From positions 10,522-58,122 of the forward strand of contig NZ_AOIN01000080.1 of assembly GCF_000337135.1 (NCBI RefSeq): a stretch of 47,601 bases of DNA, read 5' to 3'. Shown here piece after piece: positions 8,167 through 47,067 of this stretch. Source of the DNA: Natrialba chahannaoensis JCM 10990. GTDB lineage: Archaea > Halobacteriota > Halobacteria > Halobacteriales > Natrialbaceae. The translations under genes were made by a program, and so were the position numbers. The notes beneath the pieces were generated by a model. That model was not told where the DNA came from, searched no databases, and was given only the letters and a program-made list of their open reading frames with translations. Position 1 is the first letter of the stretch; every line of letters starts with the position of its first letter.

Positions 8167-9096
8167 TCAGACGTACTGGAACCACTCGTCGTACTCGTCG
8201 GTCGTCCGCTCGACGACATCGAAGAAGCGTGACTGAATATCTTCGGTCACAGGACCGCGCGAGCCGTCACCGATGGTAACGTTGTCGATCTTTCGAATCG
8301 GCGTCACCTCTGCCGCAGAGCCGGTGAAGAACAGTTCGTCTGCCGTGTTGAGTTCGCCTCGCGAGATGGAGACGTTGTCGTGGACCGTATACCCCAGATC
8401 CTTGGCGAGCGTAATCACCGTGTTGCGGGTGATGCCATCTAGGATAGACTCGGAGAGTCCCGGCGTGAAAATCTCACCGTCACGCACGAGGAAGATGTTC
8501 TCTCCCGGCCCCTCGGCAACGTTACCCTCTTTGTTGAGGACGAGCGCCTCGGCGTAGCCGTTCCGGCGTGCCTCTTCGCCCGCGAGCAGACTGTTCGCGT
8601 ACAGCCCCGTCGTCTTGGCGTTCGTCGGCACCTGACTCGAGGCGTGCTTGCGCCAGGAAGAAACCATCACATCGATACCCTTCTCGAGTGCCTCCTCGCC
8701 GAGGTAGGTGCCCCAGGGCCAGGCGGCGATGGCGGTGCGGGTCGGGCAGTCGTCGGGGCTGACACCAAGTGAGTTGTAGCCGTAGAAGGCCACTGGGCGA
8801 ATGTAACACGAGGAGAGATCCTGTCGGCGGATAAGCTCGAGTGTCGCCTCGGTGAGTTCCTCTCGCGAGTGGTCGATCTCCATCTCGTAGGGTTGTGCGG
8901 ACTGGAAGAGGCGGTCGAGGTGTTCCTCCCAGCGGAAAATTGCGGGGCCGTTTTCGGTCTCGTAACAGCGTGCGCCTTCGAAGATGCCGCTACCGTAGTG
9001 GAGACCGTGTGTGAGAACGTGGACCTGCGCATCGTTCCAGTCGACGAATTCGCCGTCCATCCAGATCGTGTCGACGTCCATGTCGTCGAATCCCAT
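8167..9096 (-). CDS. ilvE: Branched-chain amino acid aminotransferase
   Basis: Transfers amino groups between glutamate and the keto acids of leucine, isoleucine and valine using PLP. The 309-aa fold-type IV enzyme shows VLTHGLHYGSGIFEGAR near residue 27, the catalytic lysine in NAKTTGLYANS near residue 160, and the cofactor segment EGPGENIFLV near residue 196. The length is normal and the ATG start is clear. It lies 68 bp downstream of the copper protein gene on the same strand, but is probably unrelated in function. Confidence 0.95.
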   Translation of the reverse strand: MGFDDMDVDTIWMDGEFVDWNDAQVHVLTHGLHYGSGIFEGARCYETENGPAIFRWEEHLDRLFQSAQPYEMEIDHSREELTEATLELIRRQDLSSCYIRPVAFYGYNSLGVSPDDCPTRTAIAAWPWGTYLGEEALEKGIDVMVSSWRKHASSQVPTNAKTTGLYANSLLAGEEARRNGYAEALVLNKEGNVAEGPGENIFLVRDGEIFTPGLSESILDGITRNTVITLAKDLGYTVHDNVSISRGELNTADELFFTGSAAEVTPIRKIDNVTIGDGSRGPVTEDIQSRFFDVVERTTDEYDEWFQYV

Positions 9097-30108: not shown

Positions 30109-31557
30109 ATGAGTGATGCACAGCGACCGATCGACGACAGCGTACCGAGCGAGCAACCGAGCACTGGCGGTGCGGACGAAGACGACAGTGGCAATGACGA
30201 GTTCGAACCCGTACAGGTCTTCCCGGAGGCCGAGGAGATGGACCTCCGTCCGGGCGCGGACAACTGTTATAAGTGCTCAACCTGCGACACGAACTGCCCC
30301 GTCGCCGAAGTCGACGACGAGTTCCCCGGGCCGAAGTTCCAGGGGCCAGAACAGTGGCGACTGAAGCGCCAGGACGACCACGACATCGACGAATCGGTGA
30401 TGAAGTGTTCGAACTGCATGCGCTGTGATAGTGCCTGCCCCTCGAGTGTCCCGCTCTCACAGATGCACAACACGGCGCGGGCGGAGTACGTCGAGGAGAA
30501 CATGAGCAAATTCTCGCGCGAGTACCTTCGCAACCGGATGCTGGCGAACTACCGGCGACTCGCCCCGCTGGCGTCGATGTTCCCACGCACAGCGAACTTC
30601 GTGATGGGACTCTCGGTCACGAAGTGGCTCGGTGAGAAGACCCTGGGGATCACGAGCGAGCGTGACTTGCCCACGTTTGCGACAGAGACGTTCCGCGAGT
30701 GGTGGACGGACAGGGGCGGGGCGAAGGTTCAGAACGAGAACAAGCGCATCGCCTACTTCCACGGCTGCTACTCGAACTACAACACCCCCGAGGTCGCGAA
30801 GGCGCTCGTGCGCGTTTACGAACACTTCGGCTACGAGGTCATGGTCCCCGAACAGTCCTGCTCCGGCACGCCGATGTTCGCAAACGGCATGCTCGAGGAC
30901 GCCCGCCGCGCGGCCGAGACGAACGTCCGCGAACTCGCCGCAGCCATTGAGGACGGCGCAGACGTTATCGCGTCGTGTAGCTCCTGCTCGATGTCGATTC
31001 GCCAGGAGTACCCCGAACTGTTCGATTTCGAGGACACCGAGACCGTCGCCGCGAACACCTGGGACGCCGTCGAGTATCTCCGCGTCCACGAGGATTTGAC
31101 AGGTGCACTCGAGAACACGACCGTTGACGACGAGTTCGACGACATGGCGTATCACGCACCGTGTCATTCACGTAACCAGGGACTCGATGGACAGACGATC
31201 GAAGTGATGGACGCGATCGACGGCATCGACGCACACGACGTGGGCGACTCCTGTTCGGGTATCTCGGGCACCTACGGGTGGAAAGAAGAGAACTACGAGA
31301 CGTCGATGAAGATCGGCGAGGAGATGTTCGAGCACATGGACGAAGCTGAGGCCGAAACCGGCCTGACGGAGTGTCCGACCTGTTCGATGCAGATGGAACA
31401 CGGTACCGGCTACGAGATCAAGCACACGCTCGAGGTACTCGAGGCGGCCCTCGTCAGTGATGGTGGTGGCTCGCACGCGGAGACTGGTGCGAGTTCGAGC
31501 TTGGGTGAGGCTGAGGGAGAGGGTAAGAGTACCGAGACAGGAACGGAGTCAGACTGA
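30109..31557 (+). CDS. glpC: Glycerol-3-phosphate dehydrogenase subunit C
   Basis: Iron-sulfur membrane-anchor subunit that passes electrons from GlpAB to the respiratory chain. The 482-aa protein has two ferredoxin clusters, CYKCSTCDTNCPV near residue 53 and CSNCMRCDSACPS near residue 100, then two CCG domains (HGCYSNYN with SCSGTP; YHAPCHSRNQGL with SCSGISGTYGW). The first 45 and last 45 residues are acidic low-complexity extensions. The stop shares one base with the start of the next gene. Confidence 0.95.
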   Translation: MSDAQRPIDDSVPSEQPSTGGADEDDSGNDEFEPVQVFPEAEEMDLRPGADNCYKCSTCDTNCPVAEVDDEFPGPKFQGPEQWRLKRQDDHDIDESVMKCSNCMRCDSACPSSVPLSQMHNTARAEYVEENMSKFSREYLRNRMLANYRRLAPLASMFPRTANFVMGLSVTKWLGEKTLGITSERDLPTFATETFREWWTDRGGAKVQNENKRIAYFHGCYSNYNTPEVAKALVRVYEHFGYEVMVPEQSCSGTPMFANGMLEDARRAAETNVRELAAAIEDGADVIASCSSCSMSIRQEYPELFDFEDTETVAANTWDAVEYLRVHEDLTGALENTTVDDEFDDMAYHAPCHSRNQGLDGQTIEVMDAIDGIDAHDVGDSCSGISGTYGWKEENYETSMKIGEEMFEHMDEAEAETGLTECPTCSMQMEHGTGYEIKHTLEVLEAALVSDGGGSHAETGASSSLGEAEGEGKSTETGTESD

Positions 31558-32915
31558 TGAACCTTCAGGAGCGCATCGCTCGCCGACGATCGGCACACCA
31601 GGGACGGACAGTAATGGTCGACCGCGACCATCTGAGCCCTATCGTCCACCGTCCAGAGCCGATCGGCCGCGGTCCCGTCCTGGAACAGTTACTCGACGAA
31701 CTTGAGCCCGTCTTCGACGGTGATCTACCGGAGCCGGTCGCCGTCGTCGGTCCGCCGGGATCGGGCACGTCTGCGATCGTCACTGCGCTGTTCGATGCGC
31801 TCAACGACCGACTTGGCGAATCGAGCCGATCAATTGCAACGACGACGCGTGCGGGCAGCACCGGTCCGGTGACCTGGTTCGTCTACGTCGACGGCCGCCG
31901 CGTCGAGAGTGCCTTCGCGTTCTATCAGGCTGTTCTCTCGGTGATTTCGGCAGAACCAGTGCCTGAGAGTGGAATTGGGACGGACGATCTCCGCGACCGG
32001 CTGACTACACGCCTCGCGCGCCATGATCGCCGGGCTATCGTCGCCATCGATCACCACGACGAACCCGAAACGCTTCGATACGAGCGGGCCAGAGAGCTCC
32101 TCGAACCAGTCAGTGACAGTGTCGCGACGATGGCGGTCGGACAGTCGACGCCAGAGAACTGGCAGCCCGCCCACGTCGAGAACAACGGCGGTGCAGGCCA
32201 GATTGGGGCCGAAAACGAGGCCGACACCGACGAGGACTACCCGACAACCAGAGACAACAGAGCGCAGCTGAGGGGGTCGGTCGTCACCGTTCCGGCGTAC
32301 CGCCATCACGAACTCGTCGACGTTATCACCGACCGCGCCTCGACCGGCCTCGCCGCGGGCGTCCTTGACCACGAGTCCGTGCGCGAACTCGCCATCTGGG
32401 CCGACGGCAACGCCCACGACGCACTCGCCGCGCTCTTCGGCGCGGCCTGTCGCGCCACCGAAACCAGCACAACCCGTATCGAGGACACCCATCTCGAAGC
32501 GGCGCGCAACGCGGTCCCCGACGACGGTGTCCACGTCGATCGCGCGCTTGCACTCTCTGAGACGCGCCAGCAAGTGCTCGTCCACCTCGTCGACGTCGAC
32601 ACCGACAGCCGACCGATCCGGGAAGTCGCGGCCGCCATCGCCGAACGGTCGACACTCACCAACGGCACGGTCAAGCGCTTCCTCTACGAACTCGCAGACC
32701 GGGGCGTCATTGAACGCGTCCCGCTTCCCACGACCGGCAGTGGCCGCCGGCCGAGTACAGTCGAACCTCGCTTTCCGACGCTCGTTTTCGAAGCGCTCAC
32801 CTCAGCGGTGACCGATACGGCAAGCGATACAGAGACGGGCGAAATAACCGATAGAGACGCGGGGACGGACACAAACGAGGAGGCAGACACCAACACGAAT
32901 ACGAGCACAAACTAA
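31557..32915 (+). CDS. Orc1/Cdc6-like ATPase with altered Walker A
   Basis: A 452-aa protein laid out like archaeal Orc1/Cdc6: the opening PIVHRPEPIGRGPVLEQLL, an AAA+ core, then a C-terminal winged helix (about residues 325-405, REVAAAIAERSTLTNGTVKRF). Walker A reads GPPGSGTS (residues 65-72), with Thr71 where the catalytic Lys belongs. Walker B-like AIVAIDHHDE is near residue 160. ATP hydrolysis is therefore doubtful and it is unlikely to be the main replication initiator. No origin-like repeats are seen around it. One-base overlap with glpC makes it co-expressed with glycerol genes. The tail is Thr/Asn/Asp low complexity. Confidence 0.75.
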   Translation: MNLQERIARRRSAHQGRTVMVDRDHLSPIVHRPEPIGRGPVLEQLLDELEPVFDGDLPEPVAVVGPPGSGTSAIVTALFDALNDRLGESSRSIATTTRAGSTGPVTWFVYVDGRRVESAFAFYQAVLSVISAEPVPESGIGTDDLRDRLTTRLARHDRRAIVAIDHHDEPETLRYERARELLEPVSDSVATMAVGQSTPENWQPAHVENNGGAGQIGAENEADTDEDYPTTRDNRAQLRGSVVTVPAYRHHELVDVITDRASTGLAAGVLDHESVRELAIWADGNAHDALAALFGAACRATETSTTRIEDTHLEAARNAVPDDGVHVDRALALSETRQQVLVHLVDVDTDSRPIREVAAAIAERSTLTNGTVKRFLYELADRGVIERVPLPTTGSGRRPSTVEPRFPTLVFEALTSAVTDTASDTETGEITDRDAGTDTNEEADTNTNTSTN

Positions 32916-35806: not shown

Positions 35807-38692
35807 TTAGACGTCGTCCGTCTCGCCATCTGCTGCTTCCTCGTCGGCAACGGTGTCATCTCCAGCTTCCTCACCGTCATCGGCTGCCCCGTCTTCATCT
35901 TCGTCCGCTGGATCCTCATCTTCAGTCTCGATCTCCTCGAGTTCGACGTCGAGCGTTTCACCGTTGATGACCGCCGACTCCGAAACTTCCTGTGCTCCCT
36001 GGTACACGGTGAATTCCTCTCCATCGGACATCGCGAACGAGATTTCGTACTCGTCTTCGAGTGCCTCGACGGCACTGTTCGTATAGCCGTCTTCGACGCC
36101 GAGTTCGTCGTCCGTCGCGTATGGAACCGTCAACTCGAACGCACCGTTCTCGTCGACTTCACCCTGCTGGGTGTAGTTGAACGTAGTTCCAGTGTTAGTC
36201 TCGAGTTCGAGCGTTGCAGTGACGACATCGCCTGCAGAGACGTTCTCGTCATCGACGGTTCCGCTAAGGGTTGCACCTTCGACGCGCTCGTAGGTTTTGA
36301 CCGAGGCAGTCTCGCGCTGTCCGATCTCCTCGTACTCGAGGTTTGGATGCTGCTGGATCTGTTGCAACTCCAAGAACGTATTCGGACTCGACAAGTCCTG
36401 GTTGAGACGGACTTGCGGCGTTCCGTCCTCCGCCGTCAGCACCTGATCGGTGTCAGAATTGATGATCGCGTAACTCATGAACTGCGTCGCGTGCTCCTCG
36501 TTTTCGTGGACGAGGCGGTAGTTCTCCATTCCGACTGCGTTGTTGAAGTACAGCGACGAGAGGACCGTATCGTCGTACGGTACGTTGTTGAACACCTCTG
36601 CGACCTCGTCACGGTCGATCTGTTCGGTTCCGTCGTAGTCTTCCGGCGTAATGTAGTGGTTGTGATCAGGGCCGGTCCACGCAGTGATCGCTGGGAACTT
36701 GCCTGCAGCCATCGCGTCGTCAATCATCACGTATCGGATCTCGTTGTCAGCGTTCGCTGCCTGGTCGACGATGTCCTGTAGTTCCTCGTTGGTCTCGTTA
36801 GTTGGCTCCTCGCCGGCAGCGATCGCGTCGAGGATCAGTTCTGCACGCTCTTCGGATTGTGCAGTCAGGAACGCCGACGACGAGTCAGCATGCGACTGGA
36901 ACGGGTTGGAGTGTGCCATGCGCTCATCCTGGACGTTGATCAGATGGCCGTAGTCCCACCAGGAGAGCACACCGTAGGAGCCTTCAGGATAGTCGAAGGT
37001 CCCATCCTCGCTGTACTCGTAGTAGCCGTTGTAGTCGAGTTGATCGGAACTGGTTGCATCGCCCCAGTCACCCGGCTCAGGCGTATTTTCGGCCATCCAT
37101 TCGTTCGAGTCCTCCCACGTTACGGACTCTGGGTGTGGTCCCGTGTTGCCGCCTGCTGCAGCCGCGTGTGAGTCTGCCATCGGTGGGAGCAACGGAACGA
37201 ACAACATCATCAGGACCAGCCCGAGAGCGATGACCTGATACGTCTCGATGTCACGGAGACTATCGAGGTTGTCCGGTAGGGTTAGCCAGTTCATCGCAAC
37301 AGCGACGAAGTACGCGTTGAGCACGGCAACCGCCACGACGAGGTAGTAGTTGAATCGAACCTGCGTCAAGGCCATGCTGATCAAGAACAGCGACCAAACC
37401 GTAACAAGCAGATGTTCTGCGCGGAACTTGCGTCCGAACAGCGGTCGGAGAACGAGCAACGCAAGCCCAATGAGGGCACTGTAGAACGCGAGCCCGAACT
37501 CAGAGAACATGTGGTCTGCAGGATCGCTCGGCGGTTGGACCTCCTGAACCGTCAGTGCCGAGGCACCGTGTCCAAACGGAACGAGTCGTCCCGAGATGTT
37601 CGAGATGAGCGTGCTGTAAACATCGGGAAGAACAACCGCGAGCGCCACGATCGTAAGTACGATCGAGCCAGCGATCGCAGCAGGGTAGCCACGCCGATCG
37701 AGGCCTTGTTCTTCCCACTGCCGCGCCAGAAACGCCATGAACACACATCCCCCAGCGACGAGCAGCGGGAACGTCGGCTGGAAGTAGTCAAAGCCGGTTG
37801 CACTGAATCCAGATTCTTGAATCCGAAGCGCTGTTCCTGCGGAAACGACGAGCATACTGACGACGCCGACGAATGCAACGTGATCCGGAGAACGACCGCT
37901 AAGGAAATCCAGTGATAGCTGAATTACGAAGAAGACGCCGAAGATACCGACGAGGACGACACCTGGCGGCCACGAGAGGATATAGAGTAGCGTCGCAAAG
38001 CCGGCTAACGCGCTGTAGATGGCAGGACGTTTGAGCTGATCCCACTCTTTCGTCTTGACGAGTTCGTAGATCGGACGATCCTGTTCTGCCGTGCGCAGCG
38101 CGACCATCATCGCGAGAATCGCGAGCGACATGAACAGCACCTCGGCGACGTGATGCTGGAGTTGTCCCGCAGTGGTGCGTGCGAGGAAGGTCCCCGGTGC
38201 GAGTGCGAGGATTGCGATGCCAGCGAGGCCACCAACCGTTCCACCGAGACGACGACCGATGTAGAACGTCGGGACGGCGACGAGTGCAGCCATCGCGGGG
38301 ACCGTGATGAGGGCTGCAAGAAGGATTTGGTTCTGTGACGGATCACCAAGTCCGATAATCATCGCGACCGTTGCGATAATAAAGTCGAACAGCGTTCCGA
38401 ACTGGCCGGAGAGGTGTCCTTCTGGGAACGATGTCCACGGATCGACGAGAATCATGTTCGGATAGTTCTCGACCGCCCATTCTGTCGTTCGCCAGTGGTA
38501 CCAGGAGTCGACAGCCTGGAGGGAGAGGCTGTCTTCACCGTAGAATGCGTCGTAGTTCTGGAAGCGAACGTAGAACATAAACGCAACCACGGCAATGATC
38601 CCGGGGATATGGTACTGCCGGCGAAGGAAAGCGTAGACGCCCGAGGTGTCGGAAACCTCGGTAGAACGCTCCGCTTGCGTTTGGTTACTCAT
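35807..38692 (-). CDS. aglB: Dolichyl-phosphooligosaccharide-protein glycotransferase (oligosaccharyltransferase)
   Basis: Transfers the lipid-linked glycan to Asn in N-x-S/T sites of S-layer and other surface proteins. The 961-aa STT3-family protein has about 13 membrane helices in the first 500 residues, with the catalytic loop containing VDSWYHWRTTEW. A large extracellular domain carries the signature SWWDYGHLINV near residue 578. The C-terminal 45 residues are Asp/Glu/Ala low complexity. A TATA element (CTATAAGC on the plus strand, 38719-38726) puts transcription start almost at the ATG. It anchors the glycosylation cluster that follows. Confidence 0.96.
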   Translation of the reverse strand: MSNQTQAERSTEVSDTSGVYAFLRRQYHIPGIIAVVAFMFYVRFQNYDAFYGEDSLSLQAVDSWYHWRTTEWAVENYPNMILVDPWTSFPEGHLSGQFGTLFDFIIATVAMIIGLGDPSQNQILLAALITVPAMAALVAVPTFYIGRRLGGTVGGLAGIAILALAPGTFLARTTAGQLQHHVAEVLFMSLAILAMMVALRTAEQDRPIYELVKTKEWDQLKRPAIYSALAGFATLLYILSWPPGVVLVGIFGVFFVIQLSLDFLSGRSPDHVAFVGVVSMLVVSAGTALRIQESGFSATGFDYFQPTFPLLVAGGCVFMAFLARQWEEQGLDRRGYPAAIAGSIVLTIVALAVVLPDVYSTLISNISGRLVPFGHGASALTVQEVQPPSDPADHMFSEFGLAFYSALIGLALLVLRPLFGRKFRAEHLLVTVWSLFLISMALTQVRFNYYLVVAVAVLNAYFVAVAMNWLTLPDNLDSLRDIETYQVIALGLVLMMLFVPLLPPMADSHAAAAGGNTGPHPESVTWEDSNEWMAENTPEPGDWGDATSSDQLDYNGYYEYSEDGTFDYPEGSYGVLSWWDYGHLINVQDERMAHSNPFQSHADSSSAFLTAQSEERAELILDAIAAGEEPTNETNEELQDIVDQAANADNEIRYVMIDDAMAAGKFPAITAWTGPDHNHYITPEDYDGTEQIDRDEVAEVFNNVPYDDTVLSSLYFNNAVGMENYRLVHENEEHATQFMSYAIINSDTDQVLTAEDGTPQVRLNQDLSSPNTFLELQQIQQHPNLEYEEIGQRETASVKTYERVEGATLSGTVDDENVSAGDVVTATLELETNTGTTFNYTQQGEVDENGAFELTVPYATDDELGVEDGYTNSAVEALEDEYEISFAMSDGEEFTVYQGAQEVSESAVINGETLDVELEEIETEDEDPADEDEDGAADDGEEAGDDTVADEEAADGETDDV

Positions 38693-38801: not shown

Positions 38802-39728
38802 ATGGAGGTCTCCGTCGTCGTTTGTACGTATTCGATGGACCGGTTCGATGCATTTTGCGAGGCCGTCGAAAGCGTCCAAGAGCAGACGTACGATGCTGTC
38901 GAAATCGTCCTCGTCGTCGATGGGAATAAAGATGTCTTTACTCGAGTTCGTACAGAATTCGGTAACGACAAAGCAACCGTCTGTATCTGCAATGATGACA
39001 ATCGCGGTGTCTCGTACAGTCGAACTAGGGGTGCTGAAATCGCCTCTGGTGATATTGTTGCGTTTCTCGACGACGATGCAGTTGCTGATTCCAGGTGGGT
39101 CGAACAGTTGGTAGATACCTACGAACGGACGGATGCGATCGCGGCAGGAGGGCGACTCGTTGGTGACTGGCAGGCAGGGAACCCGTGGTATCTCCCGCCA
39201 GAGTTCTACTGGCTCGTCGGCGTTACCCATCCCAACTTCGCAACACATCACGAAGAGGTCCGAAATACATTCGAGTCAAACATTTCATTCCGTCGTGATG
39301 TGTTCCTCGCGCTCGGTGGTTTCGATCCCGAGTTGGGTCCTACCAGCAACCGATACCTCCACTCCGAAGGTGCAGAACTGTGTGCTCGCATGCAGGAACA
39401 ATACGGTAGCGGTGTTGTCTACAATTCCACTGCAGTGGTCGAGCACAAAGTGTTCGAACATCGGATCCAACCCAGATGGCTCCTCCGACGAGCGTTTCAG
39501 CAGGGATACTCGAAGCGACTACTCGAGTCGACCGTCGATGATTCTGGTGGAGAAGAGGGTGCGTTTCTCAAAGAGTTGTTCACCCGTAGCGTTCCAACAT
39601 ACGGAGGGAAGGCGATCCGTTCTCGGTCGTTGAAACCGATAGGACAACTCCTGATGGTGTTTGCTTTTACGGCTGCCGTCGGCGTTGGGTATCTTCGTCA
39701 GCTCGTCGAAACAGGTATTCGGTCGTAA
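38802..39728 (+). CDS. aglG: Family 2 glycosyltransferase, AglG/AglE-like
   Basis: A 308-aa GT-A fold transferase that adds a sugar, probably a hexuronic acid, to the dolichol-linked N-glycan. It opens with EVSVVVCTYSMDRFDAF and has the metal site AFLDDDAV near residue 88, GRLVGDWQAGNPWYLPPEFY near residue 120 and ISFRRDVFLALGGFD near residue 165. A C-terminal hydrophobic segment (about residues 283-300) could anchor it. The order and motifs match the AglG/AglE group of Haloferax. The exact step cannot be read from sequence. Confidence 0.85.
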   Translation: MEVSVVVCTYSMDRFDAFCEAVESVQEQTYDAVEIVLVVDGNKDVFTRVRTEFGNDKATVCICNDDNRGVSYSRTRGAEIASGDIVAFLDDDAVADSRWVEQLVDTYERTDAIAAGGRLVGDWQAGNPWYLPPEFYWLVGVTHPNFATHHEEVRNTFESNISFRRDVFLALGGFDPELGPTSNRYLHSEGAELCARMQEQYGSGVVYNSTAVVEHKVFEHRIQPRWLLRRAFQQGYSKRLLESTVDDSGGEEGAFLKELFTRSVPTYGGKAIRSRSLKPIGQLLMVFAFTAAVGVGYLRQLVETGIRS

Positions 39729-39734
39729 TATTGT

Positions 39735-40547
39735 TCATCGCTGTTTTGCGAGCACTGCAACGCGGCGGCCCCAACTTGTTCGATGCTCAAAAATCCAGTC
39801 CAGCAACCGCGTAAGTCTTGACCGTTGATAGGGGGACAGGGGGACACTGTTTACTGTGTCAAACTCATACTGGTCAAATAGTTCGAGCAGTGCCTTGTAC
39901 GTCGGTGCGTGAACATGATTGATGAACTCATTGTCATCGTAGACAGGTAACGTGCCGACTGCTCGTTCGCTTGATACCTCAACGTTACGTGGTTGGTGAC
40001 CGGTTAGTAGGGAGAAGCGATTAATCCAACTACCAAGGTTTGGTGTGGCAATCCAAAACCAGCCGTCTCGAAGTACTCGACTAACTTCTGAAAAGAGATT
40101 ATCGTAGTAGCGAAGGTGTTCAAGCAAACCGAAGGATAAGACGAGGTCGATTGAAGAGTCGGCAAATGGGAAAGTATCGTTCTCGGCATTTATGTCATAA
40201 ACAGTTATACCACTGTTAGATGCTTCATCTCGAAGGGTAGGGTCAGTGTCGATTCCATATACTTCATTAGCGCTAAGGTATTCAGCGAGTCCTGCTACGA
40301 GTCCCCCGCGGTTACAACCGACATCAAGTATTGTATTAATCGACGATTTATTCTTTTTAAGCAATGTGAGTTGCTGACGGACGGCATCAAACGAGTGAAG
40401 AATAGAAGTTTTCTGTATTTCAGTATTAGATAGATGCTTCTGGAATGGTTTTGGTAAACTCTGTCTATGGCTCCTCTCCATGCTCGTCCGGAGTACCGTG
40501 TACCAGACACTTATTATTTCGCTATATACCCGCACAATAGGCCACAT
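39735..40547 (-). CDS. Class I SAM-dependent methyltransferase
   Basis: A 270-aa methyltransferase. SAM motif I is ILDVGCNRGGLVAGL near residue 78, the acidic loop is VYGIDTDP, and the FSFGLLEHL-type motif (LSFGLLEHLRYYDNLF) lies near residue 135, followed by GWFWIATPN. Surface-glycan gene clusters often carry such enzymes to methylate a sugar. The first 20 residues are hydrophobic and basic, so an internal ATG (MERSHRQ) is a possible alternative start. It is divergent from the GT4 gene with only 47 bp between them. Its composition is AT-richer than aglB. Confidence 0.8.
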   Translation of the reverse strand: MWPIVRVYSEIISVWYTVLRTSMERSHRQSLPKPFQKHLSNTEIQKTSILHSFDAVRQQLTLLKKNKSSINTILDVGCNRGGLVAGLAEYLSANEVYGIDTDPTLRDEASNSGITVYDINAENDTFPFADSSIDLVLSFGLLEHLRYYDNLFSEVSRVLRDGWFWIATPNLGSWINRFSLLTGHQPRNVEVSSERAVGTLPVYDDNEFINHVHAPTYKALLELFDQYEFDTVNSVPLSPYQRSRLTRLLDWIFEHRTSWGRRVAVLAKQR

Positions 40548-40594: not shown

Positions 40595-41734
40595 ATGGAT
40601 GATGAGGACTTTGATGAAGTTTGTGTCGTCACGCATCCACTTGCTCCTGCGAGCGAGAACGCAACAAGGACACTCCTTGAGATTCTATCAACAATTACGA
40701 CAGTATCGCTAGTGACATCTGGACTCTCTGATGATTCGAGATTACGTGATGAGTACGAAGTTGCTGAACTAACCAACGAAGGTGTTGGCAACTCGATTTT
40801 AGTTGCTGCTATTCGATTTATCCTCAACCAACTGCGAATGTGTTGGGTGATAGCTAGGCGTGATGAATCAGTTATCCTCTTTTTTGGTGCGACATCGTAT
40901 GTACTCCCAATTGCTTTCTCACGGTTATTCGGAAAAACAGTCGTACTTGAACCTCGAGGGAATGTCCCCCTTACGTTAGAACTTCAGTGGAAAGAGCGAG
41001 TTCCGTCGGTAATGGCCATTGGACTTGCACGGATCGTCTGGCTGCTGGAGAGGGTAGGGTATCAGCTCGCTCATGGAATCGTCACATACACACCAGCGAT
41101 GGCGGAACAACTTGATCTCGGACCCTATACTCACAAACTCTATCCAAATGGTGCACGATATATCGATGTTACTCACTTTCAGCCACGGACTGCCTTTGAC
41201 AACCGCGAAGTAGTTGTTGGGTTTTTGGGACGAATTGACGAAGAGAAAGGAATTCGAAAACTAGCAACAGTTGCTAAGCATCTCCCGGAAGATATTACAT
41301 TTCGATTCATTGGTGATGGAAATCTCACAACGTGGCTTGAGTCTGAACTTGAATCAGAGATCCGTGATGGTTCAGTTGAGGTCGTAGGGTGGGTTGATCA
41401 CGAAGGTGTACCAGAGCAACTAAGCGAACTTCAGTTACTAGTTATGCCTTCTCATCCGACGGAGGGTCTACCGACCGTCATTCTTGAATCGTTCGCATGC
41501 GGAACACCAGTCTATGCAACTCCCGTTTCTGGGGTACCAGACGTCGTAAGAGGCGACGAAACGGGTTTTTTGATGAGAGAATCACATCCACAAGAAGTAG
41601 CAAAAAATATCGAGCGAATCATACGGTCGGAACCGCTGTCTGAGATGAGTAAAACGTGTCGTGAGGTGGCTGTTAAGACATATAGTAAGGATGGCGCAGT
41701 TGACCGCTACCGTACTATTCTTTGCAATTTATAA
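40595..41734 (+). CDS. Family 4 (GT-B fold) glycosyltransferase
   Basis: A 379-aa transferase of the surface-glycan cluster. The acceptor half contains GATSYVLPIAFSRLFGKTVV. The donor half opens with VVGFLGRIDEEKGIRKL near residue 208, continues with FRFIGDGN, and reaches the sugar-nucleotide site MPSHPTEGLPTVILESFACG (about residues 285-304), with the E-x7-E glutamates of GT4. Donor and acceptor sugars are unknown. Codon choice is noticeably more AT-rich than aglB and aglR. It overlaps the tail of the convergent gene at 41729 by 6 bp. Confidence 0.88.
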   Translation: MDDEDFDEVCVVTHPLAPASENATRTLLEILSTITTVSLVTSGLSDDSRLRDEYEVAELTNEGVGNSILVAAIRFILNQLRMCWVIARRDESVILFFGATSYVLPIAFSRLFGKTVVLEPRGNVPLTLELQWKERVPSVMAIGLARIVWLLERVGYQLAHGIVTYTPAMAEQLDLGPYTHKLYPNGARYIDVTHFQPRTAFDNREVVVGFLGRIDEEKGIRKLATVAKHLPEDITFRFIGDGNLTTWLESELESEIRDGSVEVVGWVDHEGVPEQLSELQLLVMPSHPTEGLPTVILESFACGTPVYATPVSGVPDVVRGDETGFLMRESHPQEVAKNIERIIRSEPLSEMSKTCREVAVKTYSKDGAVDRYRTILCNL

Positions 41735-42634
41735 ACCAGTCTCACCCGGGAGACTGATGTTCCGTCTGTGAAATAAGATTGCTATATCTGGATGTGAAAA
41801 ACCATCAGGAACGTTGGAAATCTTCTCTTTTAGTGGATCGCCAATGACACCTCCTGCTTTAGCTGGACTTTTGGTTCGTAGCTCGTCCTCGAGAGAAGCA
41901 GCAATTTGATTGCGTAGATCTTGCCACTCAGCGTGACGGACAGCGATTCGAACTGGAATTAAATCTAGGTCGAGTATTTTTGCAATGGATAACCGATGAC
42001 GTCCCTCGTTGAGATAGAAGGACCCTGTCCGGCCGATATCAACTGTGATTTCGTGCCGTAAGATCGAGTCAGTGGGAAAGGTGGTTAGACTTCTTGTCGA
42101 AGTAATACCCATCGGGTCATTCTGATTACTCAGAAGTTGCTCCTGAGTTTGATATCCATACTGTTCGATAGTCGAATACAATTCATCCAAGCGTTGAAAA
42201 CGCCGTTTTAATCCTGTTGGTGTTCGACTTCTAGCGTACTGACCTTCTTGCACAGCACGTAATTTCTTCTTGTAGTAATCTGTTTCCTCCCAATCTAATC
42301 CATCTTCGTAATGTGATTTAAAAGAATTATGAATTAACATCGACGAGAATAAGATAGACTCCTTATCCCAGTCACCGTCAACAACACGCGAGGTGTCAGA
42401 TATAAAATCGAACTCCTTCCCGGAATGATATGTTATTTTTTCTGGCGGAATGTAGAACGTTCTATATGGATCGATTGTTGCCGATCCTGTGTTACTCGAG
42501 TTGTTCTTCCATGATGAGACGCTATAATTCACATGATCATATGTATTCCAAAGTCGTCGAAAAAGCGGTTCTGAACGCGGGAATCGGTCCATTAAGTAGC
42601 GCATTGAGTTGCGCAGATGATCGGTTAAAAACAT
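41729..42634 (-). CDS. ParB/Srx-like domain protein, paralogue 1
   Basis: A 301-aa protein of unknown function. The C-terminal half has VDIGRTGSFYLNEGRHRLSI, then AKILDLDLIPVRIAVRHAEW (about residues 200-240), which resembles the ParB/sulfiredoxin fold where the residues before HR bind nucleotide. The middle holds RRFQRLDELYSTIEQYGY. The next gene on the same strand encodes a clear paralogue with the same order of motifs. ParB-like domains include kinases and nucleases, so the activity is open. Sequence is AT-rich for the genome. Location in the agl cluster suggests a surface-glycan role. Confidence 0.7.
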   Translation of the reverse strand: MFLTDHLRNSMRYLMDRFPRSEPLFRRLWNTYDHVNYSVSSWKNNSSNTGSATIDPYRTFYIPPEKITYHSGKEFDFISDTSRVVDGDWDKESILFSSMLIHNSFKSHYEDGLDWEETDYYKKKLRAVQEGQYARSRTPTGLKRRFQRLDELYSTIEQYGYQTQEQLLSNQNDPMGITSTRSLTTFPTDSILRHEITVDIGRTGSFYLNEGRHRLSIAKILDLDLIPVRIAVRHAEWQDLRNQIAASLEDELRTKSPAKAGGVIGDPLKEKISNVPDGFSHPDIAILFHRRNISLPGETGL

Positions 42635-42728
42635 AAATAATCGTATCTAACTCGAAACAAAGGGGTTTGCTGTCGTACCATATTTGAACCATTTATGATT
42701 AGTAGACATCAATTTTCCACTCTATCAA

Positions 42729-43499
42729 CTACTTTGGAAGAGTGCACTCAATATCTGGGTGGGTTGCATATTGGGTGGGAACAATATCTTTCTTCGCAAT
42801 ACTTTCCCTTTTCTCCTGCCACTCTCTGTGTCGGACATAGATTCGAACAGGTATTTTGCTTAGACCAAGTATTTTTGAGATACACAATCGATGCCAACCA
42901 TTTCCATTGAACAATAATTCACCATCTCGACCAATATTGAGCAAGATGTTTTCAAATTTATATTCATCTCCTCGAATTTCGGACTGGGTCAAGATTCCAT
43001 GAGACTTAATACTGTCATATAAGTCATCAATCTCCCGATAGCGCTCCAGTAAGTCTTCACGAGTGTAGCACTGATCTTTTTGGCCTCCATTTTGAATTAT
43101 TTCTAGAAAGTCCTCGAATATCTTGGTCTCCTCCCACGTTTTACCGTCAAGAAATCTTTCTTTCAAACCGATGTATTTGGTAGATTCTGTGATTTTTTTA
43201 CGTTGACGGTCCCAGAGACCATCGTAGATGGCACCTTCGTGCCCATACTTATCAAATACGTCAGCAAAGTACTGAATTTGGTCTGGTTCAATCCAAATAA
43301 TCGCAAGGGGGTCGGTAAGTGCTTCGTAGCCTGAGATACGATTTTTTACCTGGTTTGATTTCGACTGAAGGACAATATACTCGTTCCGTTCTTTGATTCT
43401 CCACTTTGTAAACCTGATTCCACCACTAAGGAGACCTATCATACCTCTATTTTCATACACTCTTCTTGAGACAGTAAGTGGCTTCAAGAGGGATGACAT
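42729..43499 (-). CDS. ParB/Srx-like domain protein, paralogue 2
   Basis: A 256-aa protein matching the gene at 41729 across its C-terminal two thirds: YREIDDLYDSIKSHGILTQS, NIGRDGELLFNGNGWHRLCI, SKILGLSKIPVRIYVRHREW and HPDIEC. In the motif before HR, paralogue 1 has NEGRHR and this one has NGNGWHR, so the putative binding residues differ. Its N-terminal third has no counterpart I recognise. A TATA element reads TATTTAT on the minus strand at 43551-43557. It is among the most AT-rich genes here. Function is unknown. Confidence 0.7.
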   Translation of the reverse strand: MSSLLKPLTVSRRVYENRGMIGLLSGGIRFTKWRIKERNEYIVLQSKSNQVKNRISGYEALTDPLAIIWIEPDQIQYFADVFDKYGHEGAIYDGLWDRQRKKITESTKYIGLKERFLDGKTWEETKIFEDFLEIIQNGGQKDQCYTREDLLERYREIDDLYDSIKSHGILTQSEIRGDEYKFENILLNIGRDGELLFNGNGWHRLCISKILGLSKIPVRIYVRHREWQEKRESIAKKDIVPTQYATHPDIECTLPK

Positions 43500-43557: not shown

Positions 43558-43697
43558 GTTGTATGACTCAATTGCGACAATTCGAGCACGACCGATACAG
43601 ACTGGAGCGAACAAGAGAACAGGTGTCCGTTTTTCGGTGATCACAAGATTCGATGGAGAGTTCAGGACGAAGAAGTAGAGACACCTATTGTTATGCA

Positions 43698-43705
43698 ACT
43701 ATAAG
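43698..43705 (+). promoter_or_regulatory. TATA element of aglR
   Basis: ACTATAAG ends 32 bases before the chosen ATG at 43737, which supports that start over the in-frame ATG at 43653. Confidence 0.5.
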
Positions 43706-43736
43706 CGGGCAAATAGCAATACGAATTACCCCGATC

Positions 43737-45176
43737 ATGCGAATTGGCCAAACCTCTTTCATCGTCTTTGTCTCTAAATTCGCAAAGGCCGCCCTCGGAT
43801 TCGTCGCAACAATCTACTTCGCTCGAGTACTCGGCGCTGAGATCCTCGGCTATTATGCGTTGATCCTCGCACTCGTCGCGTGGCTCGAACTCGGCGGAAA
43901 GATCGGCATCTCAACAGCAATAACAAAGCGCCTGAGCGAGGGCGAAGACCAGTCTGCGTACTTTACCGCAGGTGTGATCGCTATCGGAATCCTTGCGGCT
44001 GTGCTTTCCGTCGGTGTCGTCGTGTTTCGAGATGCGGTCAACGAATACGTCGGCGTGGAAGCCGCAGTGTTCGTCGTCTTTTTGCTCGTGCTCAAACTCA
44101 TCCACTCGCTCCTGACTGCCGTTCTGCAGGGAGAGCATCTAGTCCATATATACGGACTCCTCGATCCGTTGAAGACAGGATCGCGAGCCATCATCCAGAT
44201 TGGCCTCGTGTTCGCCGGATTCGGACTCACGGGGATGATCGTTGGCAAGGGAATCGGTGTCTTGATCGCGTCACTGGTTGCGCTGGTATTTGTCTCGGTT
44301 ACGCTCACACGACCATCGACCGAGCATTTCCGTAGCCTCTTCGACTACGCGAAGTACTCGTGGCTCGGAAATCTCGAGTCGAGATCGTTCAATGACGTGG
44401 ACATCGTTATTCTTGGCGCGTTAGTCTCCCCTGCACTCGTCGGAATCTATTCGGTCGCCTGGAGCATCGCGAAGTTTCTCACCGTGTTCGGCACGGCGGT
44501 GAAGGCGACGCTGTTTCCGGAGCTCAGCGTTGCCGACGCCGAAGGAGACAGTGAAACGGTTTCTGCACTCGTCAGTGATGCACTCACGTACGGCGGGTTA
44601 GTCATCATTCCTGGATTGTTCGGTGCGATACTGCTCGGCGATCGATTGCTTCTGCTGTACGGGTCAGAGTTCGTCCAGGGAACTGCCGTCCTCGGCGTAC
44701 TAATTGTCGCGACACTAGCTCGCGGCTACCAGAAACAGCTCGTCAACGTACTCAACGGAATCGACCGACCAGACGTCGCATTTAGAGTCAACGCAGTCGC
44801 CATCGTTGCGAACGTCGTGCTCAACGTCGTGCTGATCCTCTGGCTCGGCTGGCTCGGCGCGGCAATCGCAACTGCCCTGTCCGCGACGATCGGCTTATCG
44901 CTCTCGCTTCGTGAACTCCACCGGCTCGTTGCGTTCGACATTCCGTACGGTGAGCTTGCCCGACAGCTCAGTGCTGCCGTTGTAATGGCAGTAATCGTGT
45001 TCGGAGGCCAGAACACCATCGAAGCGACCGGTATCCTCGAGCAGAACGTGGTGATACTCGTCCTCCTCGTTGCGGTCGGAGCAGGCACGTACTTTGTGAC
45101 ACTGTTCACGATTTCGCGACGGTTCCGATCCACGGTCGTTGCAAATTCGCCGGTTCGGCTTCCGCTCGTGTCCTGA
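43737..45176 (+). CDS. aglR: Polysaccharide flippase-like membrane protein, AglR-like
   Basis: A 479-aa MOP-superfamily (Wzx/RfbX type) protein with about 14 membrane helices, likely to flip or help flip the dolichol-phosphate-linked sugar across the membrane. It opens with RIGQTSFIVFVSKFAKAALG and has YFARVLGAEILGYYALILAL near residue 32, as in AglR. A conserved-type loop with NDVDIVILGALVSPALVGIY is near residue 220. The ATG at 43737 is used because the extra 28 residues from 43653 are polar and overlap the promoter element. GC content returns to the genome norm here. Confidence 0.85.
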   Translation: MRIGQTSFIVFVSKFAKAALGFVATIYFARVLGAEILGYYALILALVAWLELGGKIGISTAITKRLSEGEDQSAYFTAGVIAIGILAAVLSVGVVVFRDAVNEYVGVEAAVFVVFLLVLKLIHSLLTAVLQGEHLVHIYGLLDPLKTGSRAIIQIGLVFAGFGLTGMIVGKGIGVLIASLVALVFVSVTLTRPSTEHFRSLFDYAKYSWLGNLESRSFNDVDIVILGALVSPALVGIYSVAWSIAKFLTVFGTAVKATLFPELSVADAEGDSETVSALVSDALTYGGLVIIPGLFGAILLGDRLLLLYGSEFVQGTAVLGVLIVATLARGYQKQLVNVLNGIDRPDVAFRVNAVAIVANVVLNVVLILWLGWLGAAIATALSATIGLSLSLRELHRLVAFDIPYGELARQLSAAVVMAVIVFGGQNTIEATGILEQNVVILVLLVAVGAGTYFVTLFTISRRFRSTVVANSPVRLPLVS

Positions 45177-45252: not shown

Positions 45253-47067
45253 CTACTCGACTGTGACGCTCTTCGCCAGGTTTCGCGGCTTGTCAATCGA
45301 TCGTCCCTGCAGATCCGCGATGTAGTACGCGAACAGTTGCAGGTAGACGTTCGCCACGAGTGGTGTCGCGGTCCCAAGCGATGGAACTTCGAACGAGACA
45401 TCCAGCGCGTTCGTCTCGACAGTGCCGTCGACGATACCGATTGCGGGTGAGCCGCGGGTTTGCGCTTCGGCGACGTTGTTGAGCGTCTCCGCCGGCCGCG
45501 TTCCCTCCGTCAGGACGGCGAGAACCGGCGTCTCATCGGTCACGAGCGCAAGTGGACCGTGTTTCAACTCGCCTGCAGCGAATCCCTCCGCATGGTCGTA
45601 AGCGATCTCCTTCAATTTGAGCGCGCCTTCGAGTGCAACTGGATAGCCGTAGGTCCGGCCGACGAAGAAATATGCCGAGGCGTCGACGTAGGTTTTGGCC
45701 GCCTCGCGGACGGTGTCGGCTTCGTCGAGGACCTGCTGGACCGCGCCGGGGAGACCGCGAAGGTCCTCGAGTGCACTCCGAGCGTCGGCCGCCGAGAGCG
45801 TACCCCGTTCTCGGCCGATGAACAGCGAGAGCAGCGCTAGCGTCGTCACCTGCGAGGCGAACGTCTTGGTCGCGGCGACACCGATTTCGGGGCCAGCACG
45901 GATGAAGAGACTGTCGTCGGCCTCCCGCGTCACCGTACTCCCGAGCGTGTTCGTCACCGCGAGCGTCCGCACGCCAGCACCGTTGGCGCGGCGCAGCGCG
46001 CTGAGTGTATCGGCGGTCTCGCCGCTCTGTGTGACGGCAACGGTGAGCGTCCGCCAGGGGTCGCGACCGCCCTCGAACGTGTACTCGCTCGCGAGTTGGG
46101 CCGACGCGCGCACGTCGGCGACGTGCTCGAGGAGCCCCGCGGCATACTGGGCTGCGTAGTACGAGGTTCCGCAGGCGATCAACTGGATCTCCTCCAGTGA
46201 CTCCAGAAATCCAGACGGGAACCCGAGGTCGAGGTCGGCGGTCCCGTCGTTGAGATTCACCCGTCCAGAAAGCGCCTGCCGGAGCGCAGTGGGCTGTTCG
46301 TGGATCTCCTTGAGCATGTAGTGGTCGTAGCCGCCCTTTTCGGCGGCATCGGCATTCCAGTCAACGGTTTCAATGGAGCGGTCGACCGGCGTTTCATCCT
46401 GTGTGATCGTTACCGTGCCGTCCTCCAGAACGACGACATCACCGTCCTGCAAGTACGTGACATCGCGCGTGTGCTCAAGGAACGCGGTGACGTCGCTGGC
46501 GAGGAAGGCAGTTCCGTCGCCGTGGCCGACAACTAACGGACTCTCGTGGCGCGTCGCGACGATTCGGTTCGAGCCAGCCTCGACGGCAGCGATCGCGTAG
46601 CTGCCCTCAAGTTCGTCGACGACGGACTCGAGTGCCGACTGGAGATCGTCGCCTGCCTCGAGTCGTTGCTCGAGCAGGTGGGGGACGACCTCGGTGTCGG
46701 TGTCGCTCGTGAACTCGTGGCCGTCTGCAATGAGCTCTTCCTTGAGAGCCGCGTAGTTATCGATGATGCCGTTGTGGACGACGGCGACCTCGCCTGTCAT
46801 ACCCGTGTGCGGGTGGGCGTTCGTATCGGTTGGCGGGCCGTGGGTCGACCAGCGTGTGTGACCGATGCCACAGGTTGCACTCGAGACGGACGGCACGTCA
46901 AGGCCACTGACTTCACCCTCGCGTTTGGTGATGGCCAGGCCGTCGGAGCCATGATCAACGAGCGCGATGCCTGCAGAGTCGTAGCCGCGGTAGTCGAGGT
47001 TCTCGAGGCCGCTGTGGACGATCGATCCGACGGGGCCGTCACCGACGTAGCCGACGATTCCACACAT
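45253..47067 (-). CDS. glmS: Glutamine-fructose-6-phosphate aminotransferase (isomerizing)
   Basis: Makes glucosamine 6-phosphate from fructose 6-phosphate and glutamine, the entry to UDP-N-acetylglucosamine for surface glycans. The 604-aa enzyme starts MCGIVGYVGDGPVG, so C2 becomes the N-terminal glutaminase nucleophile. GHTRWSTHG follows near residue 72 and HNGIIDNY near 97. Two SIS isomerase domains span about residues 280-590, with CGTSYYAAQYA and TQSGETADTL. It ends KPRNLAKSVTVE. It starts 2 bp after the glmU-like gene, forming an operon. Confidence 0.97.
   Translation of the reverse strand: MCGIVGYVGDGPVGSIVHSGLENLDYRGYDSAGIALVDHGSDGLAITKREGEVSGLDVPSVSSATCGIGHTRWSTHGPPTDTNAHPHTGMTGEVAVVHNGIIDNYAALKEELIADGHEFTSDTDTEVVPHLLEQRLEAGDDLQSALESVVDELEGSYAIAAVEAGSNRIVATRHESPLVVGHGDGTAFLASDVTAFLEHTRDVTYLQDGDVVVLEDGTVTITQDETPVDRSIETVDWNADAAEKGGYDHYMLKEIHEQPTALRQALSGRVNLNDGTADLDLGFPSGFLESLEEIQLIACGTSYYAAQYAAGLLEHVADVRASAQLASEYTFEGGRDPWRTLTVAVTQSGETADTLSALRRANGAGVRTLAVTNTLGSTVTREADDSLFIRAGPEIGVAATKTFASQVTTLALLSLFIGRERGTLSAADARSALEDLRGLPGAVQQVLDEADTVREAAKTYVDASAYFFVGRTYGYPVALEGALKLKEIAYDHAEGFAAGELKHGPLALVTDETPVLAVLTEGTRPAETLNNVAEAQTRGSPAIGIVDGTVETNALDVSFEVPSLGTATPLVANVYLQLFAYYIADLQGRSIDKPRNLAKSVTVE

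Follow-up and report, generated by a model that had tools for sequence, protein, structure and literature searches.

The winA-winB pair and its locus

The window analyzed is a 47,601-nucleotide stretch of contig NZ_AOIN01000080.1 from Natrialba chahannaoensis JCM 10990, and all coordinates are positions within it. Two open frames, winA (41729..42634, minus strand, 301 amino acids) and winB (42729..43499, minus strand, 256 amino acids), lie next to each other with a spacing of 94 bases and belong to subfamilies 2 and 5, respectively, of the same family. A sequence-only reading of this DNA had placed the pair inside an N-glycosylation cluster, and this setting was confirmed by the presence of the oligosaccharyltransferase gene aglB (35807..38692, minus strand; TIGR04154, 892.6 bits) and of aglG (38802..39728, plus strand; NF041394, 476.8 bits, above the cut-off of 440). 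aglG forms the left flank of a variable cassette, in which winA and winB are accompanied by a SAM methyltransferase gene (39735..40547, minus strand; PF08241, 8e-15). A GT4 glycosyltransferase gene (40595..41734, plus strand; PF00534, 1.2e-27) is convergent with winA and overlaps its end by 6 bases, and a Wzx/MurJ-like flippase gene (43653..45176, plus strand; PF13440, 7.6e-17) adjoins the pair. The right flank is a gene that, from its sequence, we take to be glmS-like (45253..47067, minus strand). The window also has variable, AT-rich genes.

The two genes had been described as tandem paralogs with a common core. BLASTP aligned winA and winB over 223 columns with 69 identical residues (31%; 95.5 bits, E 8e-28), whereas the top score with 500 shuffled winB sequences was 24.6 bits, which bears out the paralogy and the common core (LNIGRDGELLFNGNGWHRLCISKILGLSKIPVRIYVRHREWQ in winB; VDIGRTGSFYLN-EGRHRLSIAKILDLDLIPVRIAVRHAEWQ in winA). 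The NIGR motif said to start the core is present, but its first residue is variable ([ND]IGR). As claimed, the loops differ, the stretch before HRL being unequal by one residue in length, and the N-terminal parts are divergent. The term tandem holds for the adjacency of the genes but has to be qualified, because winA and winB come from different old subfamilies in the tree, at a tree distance of 2.99. A recent tandem duplication was rejected, since 19 adjacent family pairs, from 16 of the 79 loci, had a median tree distance of 2.62 versus 2.74 for random pairs.

Predicted fold and sequence relatives

AlphaFold models were obtained for winB (m50ef8ce54018; mean pLDDT, 88.2) and winA (m201e7bbf8f24; mean pLDDT, 84.5). 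In Foldseek searches, the first 42 rows for the winB model and the first 35 for the winA model were all ParB, Noc, KorB, PadC, Srx, SbnI or SerK chains, if one includes 1vk1, a hypothetical protein that we take to be a SerK homolog. The best E values were 0.044 for winB and 0.079 for winA, so that no single structural match was significant. VIA gave Z scores of at most 5.0 for all structural matches of the two models, and the top alignment for winB was to sulfiredoxin (86 of 89 residues, Z 5.0, rmsd 4.9). In the predicted models, winA and winB share a ParB/sulfiredoxin/SerK-fold core, nearly all of the best matches having that fold and each of them being weak. The sequence-only reading had named ParB-fold relatives, set structure prediction as the check and a predicted structure lacking the ParB/sulfiredoxin core as the refuting outcome; both models have this core, so that the check did not refute the reading, and a sequence link to SerK-like proteins agrees with it.

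That link came from profile comparisons. Using hhalign, we aligned the family profile with A7, an alignment of four archaeal CBS-SerK-like proteins, at a probability of 94.3% and E 1e-7, reaching the C-terminal HP. A search of the whole genome with the family profile found the genome's own CBS-SerK-like gene at E 5.1e-4. Archaeal SerK-like CBS-ParB proteins and the Thermococcus SerK TK0378 have the phosphate motif DG.HR, which the family carries with variable D and H, and share with the family the next helix and strand and the C-terminal HP. Unlike them, the family has no CBS domains (none by Pfam in 26 members, versus both SerK-like proteins scanned), carries a GDWD insert and a basic N-terminal helix, and is often present in several copies and close to glycan genes. 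PF08857 (ParBc_2) was found in one of the two archaeal SerK-like proteins scanned. For SbnI, the family profile aligned the core DGVHRFMSLKALGCEVIPV only, at a nonsignificant E of about 1, and there was a structural match too; SbnI differs in being a siderophore serine kinase and regulator. The NCBIfam SbnI model matched winA below threshold (E 0.065, 12.6 bits, cut-off 350), and winA and winB had no NCBIfam match above cut-off.

The ParB/Noc/KorB CTPase clamps (PF02195) have the core fold in common with the family models. In contrast to them, the family gave no PF02195 match among 26 members at E ≤ 1, a scan in which the HMMER filters discard most matches above about 0.1, and the whole genome gave 0 matches at E ≤ 0.01. 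Neither a helix-turn-helix (HTH) or C-terminal dimerization domain nor any other accepted Pfam domain was found in winA, winB or the 26 members. A canonical ParB identity was therefore rejected on the missing PF02195 match, HTH and dimerization domain. The family would also escape a 2025 survey of the ParB fold, because PF02195 was its search model, as described there (PMC12704722).

Several minor matches were seen. DUF3845 matched 1 of the 26 members (1.1e-3), and the helical part weakly matched 8fjg (molecule "H12"; E 0.0035), which we set aside as probably compositional. Searches of PDB sequences with winA and winB as single proteins returned nothing useful. Eleven loci with long open frames were checked by eye for domain fusions, none of which was convincing; the extra sequence looked like non-coding high-GC frame.

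Conserved motifs and the N-terminal helix

An insert after the first core strand carries the motif G-x-W-D in winB (residues 94-97; 43209..43220, minus strand; G in 104/105 members, W in 104/105, D in 101/105) and GDWD in winA (residues 87-90; 42365..42376, minus strand), where G87, W89 and D90 are invariant in alignment A8. None of the four SerK-like proteins in A7 contains GDWD. Before the core helix, the family has the phosphate motif G-x-x-R, seen as GWHR in winB (residues 201-204; 42888..42899, minus strand) and, from the sequence and A8, as GRHR in winA (residues 211-214; 41993..42004, minus strand). Its G is found in 103/105 members, its H in 86/105 (N in the other 19/105) and its R in 105/105, while the D of the longer D-G-x-H-R form occurs in 42/106 rows. 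In the profile alignment GWHR falls on DGHHR of SerK-like proteins, and it is the predicted phosphate-binding (P) motif of the ParB/sulfiredoxin/SerK fold. The C-terminal HPD of winB (residues 247-249; 42753..42761, minus strand; H 92/98, P 97/98, D 93/96) aligns with HPL of SerK-like proteins. Motifs common to winA and winB are G-D/L-W-D, W122 and T125 (winB numbering), and the C-terminal HPD.

Sulfiredoxins are the smallest proteins of the fold and gave the best VIA alignment with winB. At the presumed position of the catalytic Cys within sulfiredoxin GGCHR, R is the commonest residue among the 105 members (39), ahead of K (15), N and Q (13 each) and others, and C occurs in 1. Sulfiredoxin identity was rejected because the catalytic Cys is missing from all but this one member; GGCHR is present in L185, a distant member outside the 105-member set.

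DSSP assigned a long basic N-terminal helix to residues 6-54 of the winB model (43338..43484, minus strand), a part of lower model confidence (pLDDT blocks of 64-81). Residues 1-59 have a net charge of +8. Among 97 members, the N-terminal part is net positive in 92% and the core net negative in 92%, and a helical-moment test for amphipathic character placed 69/97 above their own shuffles, a weak signal. Some neighboring proteins have similar N-termini; the four scanned comprised a methyltransferase, a GT61 and two proteins that had no match. The modeled helix is a possible membrane-binding part of winB.

Distribution, genomic context and cassette exchange

Of the 292 genomes sampled from this class of salt-loving archaea, 109 (about a third) carry the family, with up to eight matches per genome. 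The 16 plasmid records with a match name the protein hypothetical (14 records) or leave it unannotated (2). One 4-kb viral contig matched the family, and an exact-peptide search for a viral origin gave no viral match.

The sequence-only reading had called for a survey of genomic context. Gene selection in family loci was homology-guided and missed the family gene in 1 of 91. At least one glycosyltransferase, flippase or AglB marker was present in 47/60 family regions versus 4/40 controls, and at least two in 40/60 versus 0/40, which associates the family with agl and other surface-glycan genes; 7/60 family regions had one marker only and 13/60 had none. GT61 was a direct neighbor in 8/9 cases (1.7 expected, 0/3000 permutations), the nine cases not being independent, since four loci (L070-L073) have GT61 genes that are 52-82% identical. 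Direct neighbors also included flippases (15/36, 5.9 expected, p 0.001) and sulfatase-like genes (6/14, 2.3 expected, p 0.015). ABC-type genes were slightly enriched (7/21, p 0.046), but by region they were at least as frequent in controls (14/40) as in family regions (13/60). GT2 (9/70) and GT4 (11/57) were not enriched as direct neighbors, and no recognizable glycan genes lay beside the distant archaeal member (L188, from genome G506) or the bacterial Roseivivax member.

The cassette is exchanged among seven congeners. Compared with our window, the glmS-like flank was 95-96% identical in three of the six others and 80-81% in the remaining three, and the equivalent locus carried 2, 1 or 0 family copies, namely two in the window genome, one in each of three congeners and none in the other three. 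Family members were only 33% alike between congener loci, even with a flanking flippase 97% identical. Three congeners have the locus without any family gene and two GT2 genes in the cassette, versus one GT2 or GT4 in the others.

Proposed function

winA and winB belong to an unnamed family in which a core modeled with the ParB/sulfiredoxin/SerK fold is combined with a conserved insert (GDWD...W..T) and, N-terminally, a basic helix. Our best explanation, held tentatively, is that they are accessory enzymes in the exchangeable part of the surface-glycan locus. They could be membrane-associated, nucleotide-binding enzymes that modify glycans, most likely kinases, although we put this at somewhat under an even chance; the family may phosphorylate surface sugars. 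The sequence-only reading, which had raised a sugar or amino-acid kinase role as a possibility, was partly supported, in the modeled fold and the association with surface-glycan genes. SerK, a ParB-fold relative other than a DNA clamp, is annotated as ParB yet is described as an ADP-dependent serine kinase (PMC5120207), and a phosphoryl-transfer enzyme of this fold supports the kinase reading. The modeled fold, the profile link, the glycan-gene context, the cassette exchange, the charge pattern and the near-invariant polar residues also speak for our explanation. Counting against it are the absence of a family gene from three congener loci, the family regions with one marker or none, the distant archaeal and Roseivivax members away from glycan genes, the lack of GT2 and GT4 enrichment, the related GT61 loci, the weakness of each structural match and the weak helical-moment signal. 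A literature search by title or abstract, with poor coverage of subscription journals, gave no paper tying a ParB-fold protein to glycan assembly.

In the proposed mechanism, the basic helix would keep the protein at the inner face of the membrane. Judging from the fold, the phosphates of a nucleotide would be held by the G-x-[HN]-R motif, with which the core helix begins, and the conserved acidic and basic residues D97, R191, R204, H224, R231, H247 and D249 of winB would make up an active site. Phosphate would be moved onto a hydroxyl of a lipid-linked glycan or its precursor, ahead of export by the neighboring flippase. The two adjacent old paralogs could each modify their own position or sugar, or act as a pair.

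A nucleotide-dependent switch, in which a CTP- or ATP-binding ParB fold opens and closes a membrane-bound glycan-assembly complex without chemistry, is unlikely. NTP switches are described as common among ParB-fold proteins, and CTP binding by an archaeal SerK-like protein (PMC12704722) is a result that also counts against a kinase. The basic N-terminal part and adjacent paralogs that could heterodimerize would fit a switch as well. However, the 33% likeness of members beside a 97% identical flippase is as expected of specificity genes, not of a regulator of conserved machinery, and many polar residues are near-invariant.

The P motif might instead hold a nucleotide-sugar or a lipid diphosphate in a transferase or hydrolase that moves a sugar or another group. 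The genomic context equals that of transferases, GT61 neighbors included, and the congeners without a family gene have two GT2 genes in the cassette, but phosphate is what known enzymes with this fold transfer. No member of the ParB/sulfiredoxin/SerK fold is known to move sugars, and we regard this alternative as quite unlikely.

Very unlikely, in our estimate, is a kinase of a free, serine-like amino acid, whose activated product would go into sugars decorated with amino acids. It would agree with the profile link to SerK-like proteins and with the acyltransferase-like (GNAT) genes in 8/60 family regions versus 0/40 controls and the ATP-grasp genes in 10/60 versus 1/40, but these are not constant neighbors. 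A CBS-SerK-like gene that exists separately in this genome weakens the idea, and GDWD is absent from A7. The name ParB would suggest that the island encodes here a regulator that binds DNA, or a mobile-element protein, with the basic helix on DNA. Such a role would suit the basic N-terminus and the variable, AT-rich genes of the window, but it is highly improbable given the lack of an HTH or other accepted Pfam domain, the lack of a ParB_N match in the genome, and four scanned proteins of similar N-terminus of which none is DNA-binding.

If glycan phosphorylation holds, the ParB/sulfiredoxin/SerK fold would gain a new substrate class, and the variation of archaeal surface sugars would gain testable genes. 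The family could, with the same reserve as our best explanation, be the first of the ParB/sulfiredoxin fold with carbohydrates as substrates. Its members would then be glycan kinases associated with the membrane, or other transferases, that make the surface glycans of archaea more diverse, are swapped between species like serotype genes and in some loci lie beside GT61. In the members scanned, neither the Pfam ParB model nor, above cut-off, NCBIfam recognizes this family, which 109 of the 292 genomes carry. In Haloferax, surface sugars are described as possibly affecting virus sensitivity and mating (PMC5867893).

Locus and relationship of the paired genes

In the haloarchaeal genome to which the window belongs (4.3 Mb in 106 contigs; class assigned from its agl genes and named relatives), the interval from aglG (38802-39728, + strand) on the left to a glmS-like gene (45253-47067, - strand) on the right holds a methyltransferase gene, a GT4 glycosyltransferase gene, winA (41729-42634), winB (42729-43499) and a flippase gene. 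The winA and winB genes both lie on the - strand, 94 bases apart, and 6 bases of winA are shared with the convergent GT4 gene. The G+C content is 0.64 in the glmS-like gene, 0.56 in the flippase gene, 0.43 in winA and 0.41 in winB. Protein alignment confirmed the sequence-only reading that the two neighbors are paralogs: they are 31% identical over 223 columns (E = 8e-28), with a score of 95.5 bits versus 24.6 bits for the top of 500 shuffles. Elsewhere in the window, a divergent Orc1/Cdc6-like protein is encoded at 31557-32915, directly after glpC and with a glycerol kinase gene nearby; it scored 67.7 bits against TIGR02928, missing the cut-off of 181.3.

Fold and link to SerK-like proteins

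The AlphaFold2 models of winB (34 aligned sequences) and winA (31 aligned sequences) had mean pLDDT values of 88.2 and 84.5 and pTM values of 0.79 and 0.82, respectively. Foldseek comparison with the PDB gave nothing below E 0.001 for either model. The top 42 rows for winB and the top 35 for winA were ParB, Noc, KorB, PadC, sulfiredoxin, SbnI or SerK chains, including the hypothetical protein 1vk1, which we group with SerK by assumption; the suggested kinship with ParB, SerK and sulfiredoxin was thus supported by top rows nearly all of such folds, each above that E value. VIA-align superposed winB on Arabidopsis sulfiredoxin with a Z of 5.0 (rmsd 4.9, 86 of 89 sulfiredoxin residues) and gave a best Z of 4.6 for winA, and since a Z near 5 can mean a common arrangement only, a sequence link to SerK-like proteins matters.

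Such a link was found with archaeal CBS-SerK-like proteins, which combine CBS domains with a ParB/SerK part and are separate from the family. In pairwise profile comparison, the family profile matched four of them with a probability of 94.3% (E = 1e-7, 88 columns), the alignment running from GRDGELLF through G.HRL to a C-terminal HP. The family profile also found the window genome's own CBS-SerK-like gene, at E 5.1e-4 in the whole genome and 2.6e-8 in a small set. PF08857 matched one of two CBS-SerK-like proteins scanned, and the ParB half of one matched a ParB of solved structure at 5.8e-5, with SerK chains following at 0.08-0.23. The match of winA to the NCBIfam SbnI model was sub-threshold (E 0.065).

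Association with surface-glycan genes

We set 60 family regions (57 spanning 20 kb and 3 shorter, mostly round stronger single-sequence matches, several of them sharing a genome) against 40 control regions, each 20 kb long, from other parts of 32 of the same genomes, using eleven marker profiles (eight glycosyltransferase, two flippase and one AglB). At least one glycan marker was present in 47 of the 60 family regions versus 4 of the 40 controls, and at least two in 40 versus 0, in a comparison that favors the family regions somewhat, the profiles being derived from genes near family members. The association with surface-glycan genes, first noticed in the window, extends to most of these family regions.

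The direct neighbors were analyzed in 80 non-redundant loci by within-region permutations, with p values per class, uncorrected for ten classes. Direct adjacency to a family gene was seen for 8 of 9 GT61 genes (1.7 expected; 0 of 3000 permutations), 15 of 36 flippase genes (5.9 expected, p 0.001), 6 of 14 sulfatase-like genes (2.3 expected, p 0.015) and 7 of 21 ABC-type genes (3.6 expected, p 0.046). The nine GT61 loci represent fewer than nine independent events, since in L070-L073 the GT61 genes are 52-82% identical and the family genes 62-83% identical. No enrichment was found in these loci for epimerases (9/32, p 0.054), GT2 (9/70), GT4 (11/57), UGD (1/14) or nucleotidyltransferases (1/22).

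The 13 family regions without any glycan marker count against the glycan reading. Some contain sugar genes, such as the cluster 8 epimerase gene near the L087 member, and others, with ABC-transporter-like genes in L105 and L114, have no sugar genes evident on reading. A short subfamily in two genomes, also in marker-free regions, has the conserved order 173-aa gene, member, sulfatase-like gene (called by Pfam in L083), 263-aa gene (L083:8650-12366 and L090:9035-12734). Two distant members have other neighbors: glutamate-synthase-like, PLP-enzyme and RNase III genes surround that of G506 (L188), and HI0933-like, Mur ligase and FrhB genes adjoin that of Roseivivax (L061).

In two archaea related to the window only at phylum level, the context is again surface glycan. 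One G481 member (L186) adjoins GT2, sulfotransferase and CDP-glycerol phosphotransferase genes, and a second, with an in-frame stop (L187), lies beside AglB. The G335 member (L185) has a CDP-glycerol phosphotransferase-like gene on one side and Polysacc_synt_2, DegT aminotransferase and cytidylyltransferase genes on the other. Another family, with N-terminal SPGHNGLY.D.ETPVRN..HW, occurs in glycan cassettes of two congeners and one distant archaeon (L217:4555-5682, L218:5381-6508, L186:5903-7078); one of two scanned had a sub-threshold GlcNAc 2-epimerase match and the other none.

Cassette exchange and pairing

Seven genomes of the genus were searched, one of them the window's own, and each has aglG and the glmS-like gene together at a single locus. 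The cassette of G032 comprises a GT4, a methyltransferase, a single family gene and the flippase; those of G163 and G292 comprise a GT2, a protein of no assigned kind, a sulfatase-like gene, a single family gene and the flippase. The locus lacks a family gene in G231, G293 and G186, where the cassette holds two GT2 genes, sulfatase-like frames (one or two) and the flippase. Identity between G032 and the window is 97% for the flippase, 88% for AglG, 62% for GT4, 59% for the methyltransferase and 32-33% for the family gene, which is, on this sequence comparison, a pattern of exchanged specificity genes between conserved flanks.

Family pairs at most 1.5 kb apart numbered 19, in 16 of 79 loci and several orientations. 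Their tree distances (median 2.62) resembled those between randomly drawn members (median 2.74, quartiles 2.49-2.98), so most neighbors are old paralogs brought together; nearer pairs occur in L057 and L062 (1.43 and 1.61).

Conserved core and basic N-terminus

Among 106 members from 80 non-redundant of 91 loci, near-invariant residues (winB numbering) are P72, G94, W96, D97, W122, T125, G168, R191, G193, G201, R204, P217, R223, H224, W227, R231 (the least conserved, 91 of 105), H247, P248 and D249. Position 203 is H in 86 members and N in 19. With its many charged residues, the conserved set looks like an active site.

The N-terminal part preceding the core carries a net positive charge in 92% of 97 members (median +10.9 per 100 residues), and the core is net negative in 92% of members. 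Run over the 60 family regions, a profile of the N-terminal part matched four other proteins near their N-termini at E<=0.022, namely a methyltransferase in L095 and three members of a ~335-aa group; in the 40 control regions none reached this value (best 0.043, internal). The group (L070:3825-4829, L071:8733-9740, L072:10381-11412 and a fourth member, L045:7638-8705) is homologous (37-77% identity), lies in family regions, has the basic N-terminal helix motif too, and had no Pfam match in two scanned. Since its members are related, the N-terminal sharing amounts to two independent cases. Two GT61 N-termini reached only E 0.25 and 0.43. The charge and the shared motif suggest that family proteins may bind the membrane.

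Proposed function

Flippase adjacency, specificity-gene-like divergence and enzyme-like conservation point to an enzyme that would modify a lipid-linked glycan at a late stage. To our knowledge, enzymes of the ParB/sulfiredoxin/SerK fold all transfer phosphate. Animals offer an analogy in POMK, a glycan kinase whose action follows that of POMGNT2, an enzyme of the GT61 family. A kinase is our tentative first choice, at somewhat below an even chance, followed by a switch and, third, another transferase. For the kinase reading, the fold offers precedents: SerK uses ADP and serine (PMC5120207), and in SerK, SbnI and sulfiredoxin the fold serves as an ATP-binding module (PMC12704722). The SerK-like archaeal protein tested in the latter work bound CTP.

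Distribution of the family

Neither PF02195 nor another ParB model matched any of 26 members at E<=1, and PF02195 found nothing across the whole window genome. The 2025 fold survey (PMC12704722) searched with PF02195, and the family would fall outside it, as far as its available text describes the search; that main text has a single word beginning "glycos". Among the papers listed in literature searches, none linked the ParB fold to glycan assembly by title or abstract.

By single-sequence search, 109 of 292 genomes sampled evenly across the class had members, representing 43 of 77 genera; a single genome had as many as 8 matches, some genes counting as more than one match. Profile search at E<=1e-10 gave an identical tally. 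In a phylum-wide draw, 23 of 294 genomes had matches. Five of these share only the phylum with the window's genome: G335, G481 and G506 have clear members, and the weak matches in G439 and G470 are CBS-SerK-like proteins, as is the match in G005, from the window's own taxonomic family. A scan of the species collection with two short peptide patterns, which may under-count bacterial members, gave 30 loci; their titles are haloarchaeal apart from those of a Roseivivax contig and a short Bacteroidales contig. The latter contig (L058, 3676 bases, a MAG by title) encodes one haloarchaea-like member together with 86 aa of a second match, and may be a misbinned haloarchaeal contig.

A 4-kb IMG/VR contig (L033) encodes a partial member (41% over 46 residues), and in G003 a family gene is split in two pieces with ~2.4 kb between (L191:5923-6318 and 8723-8974). 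The same partial match, to query positions 111-251, is found on plasmids of Halobacterium sp. DL1 (CP007061.1) and of Halorubrum lacusprofundi and archaeon DL31 (NZ_KX906370.1, CP002989.1).
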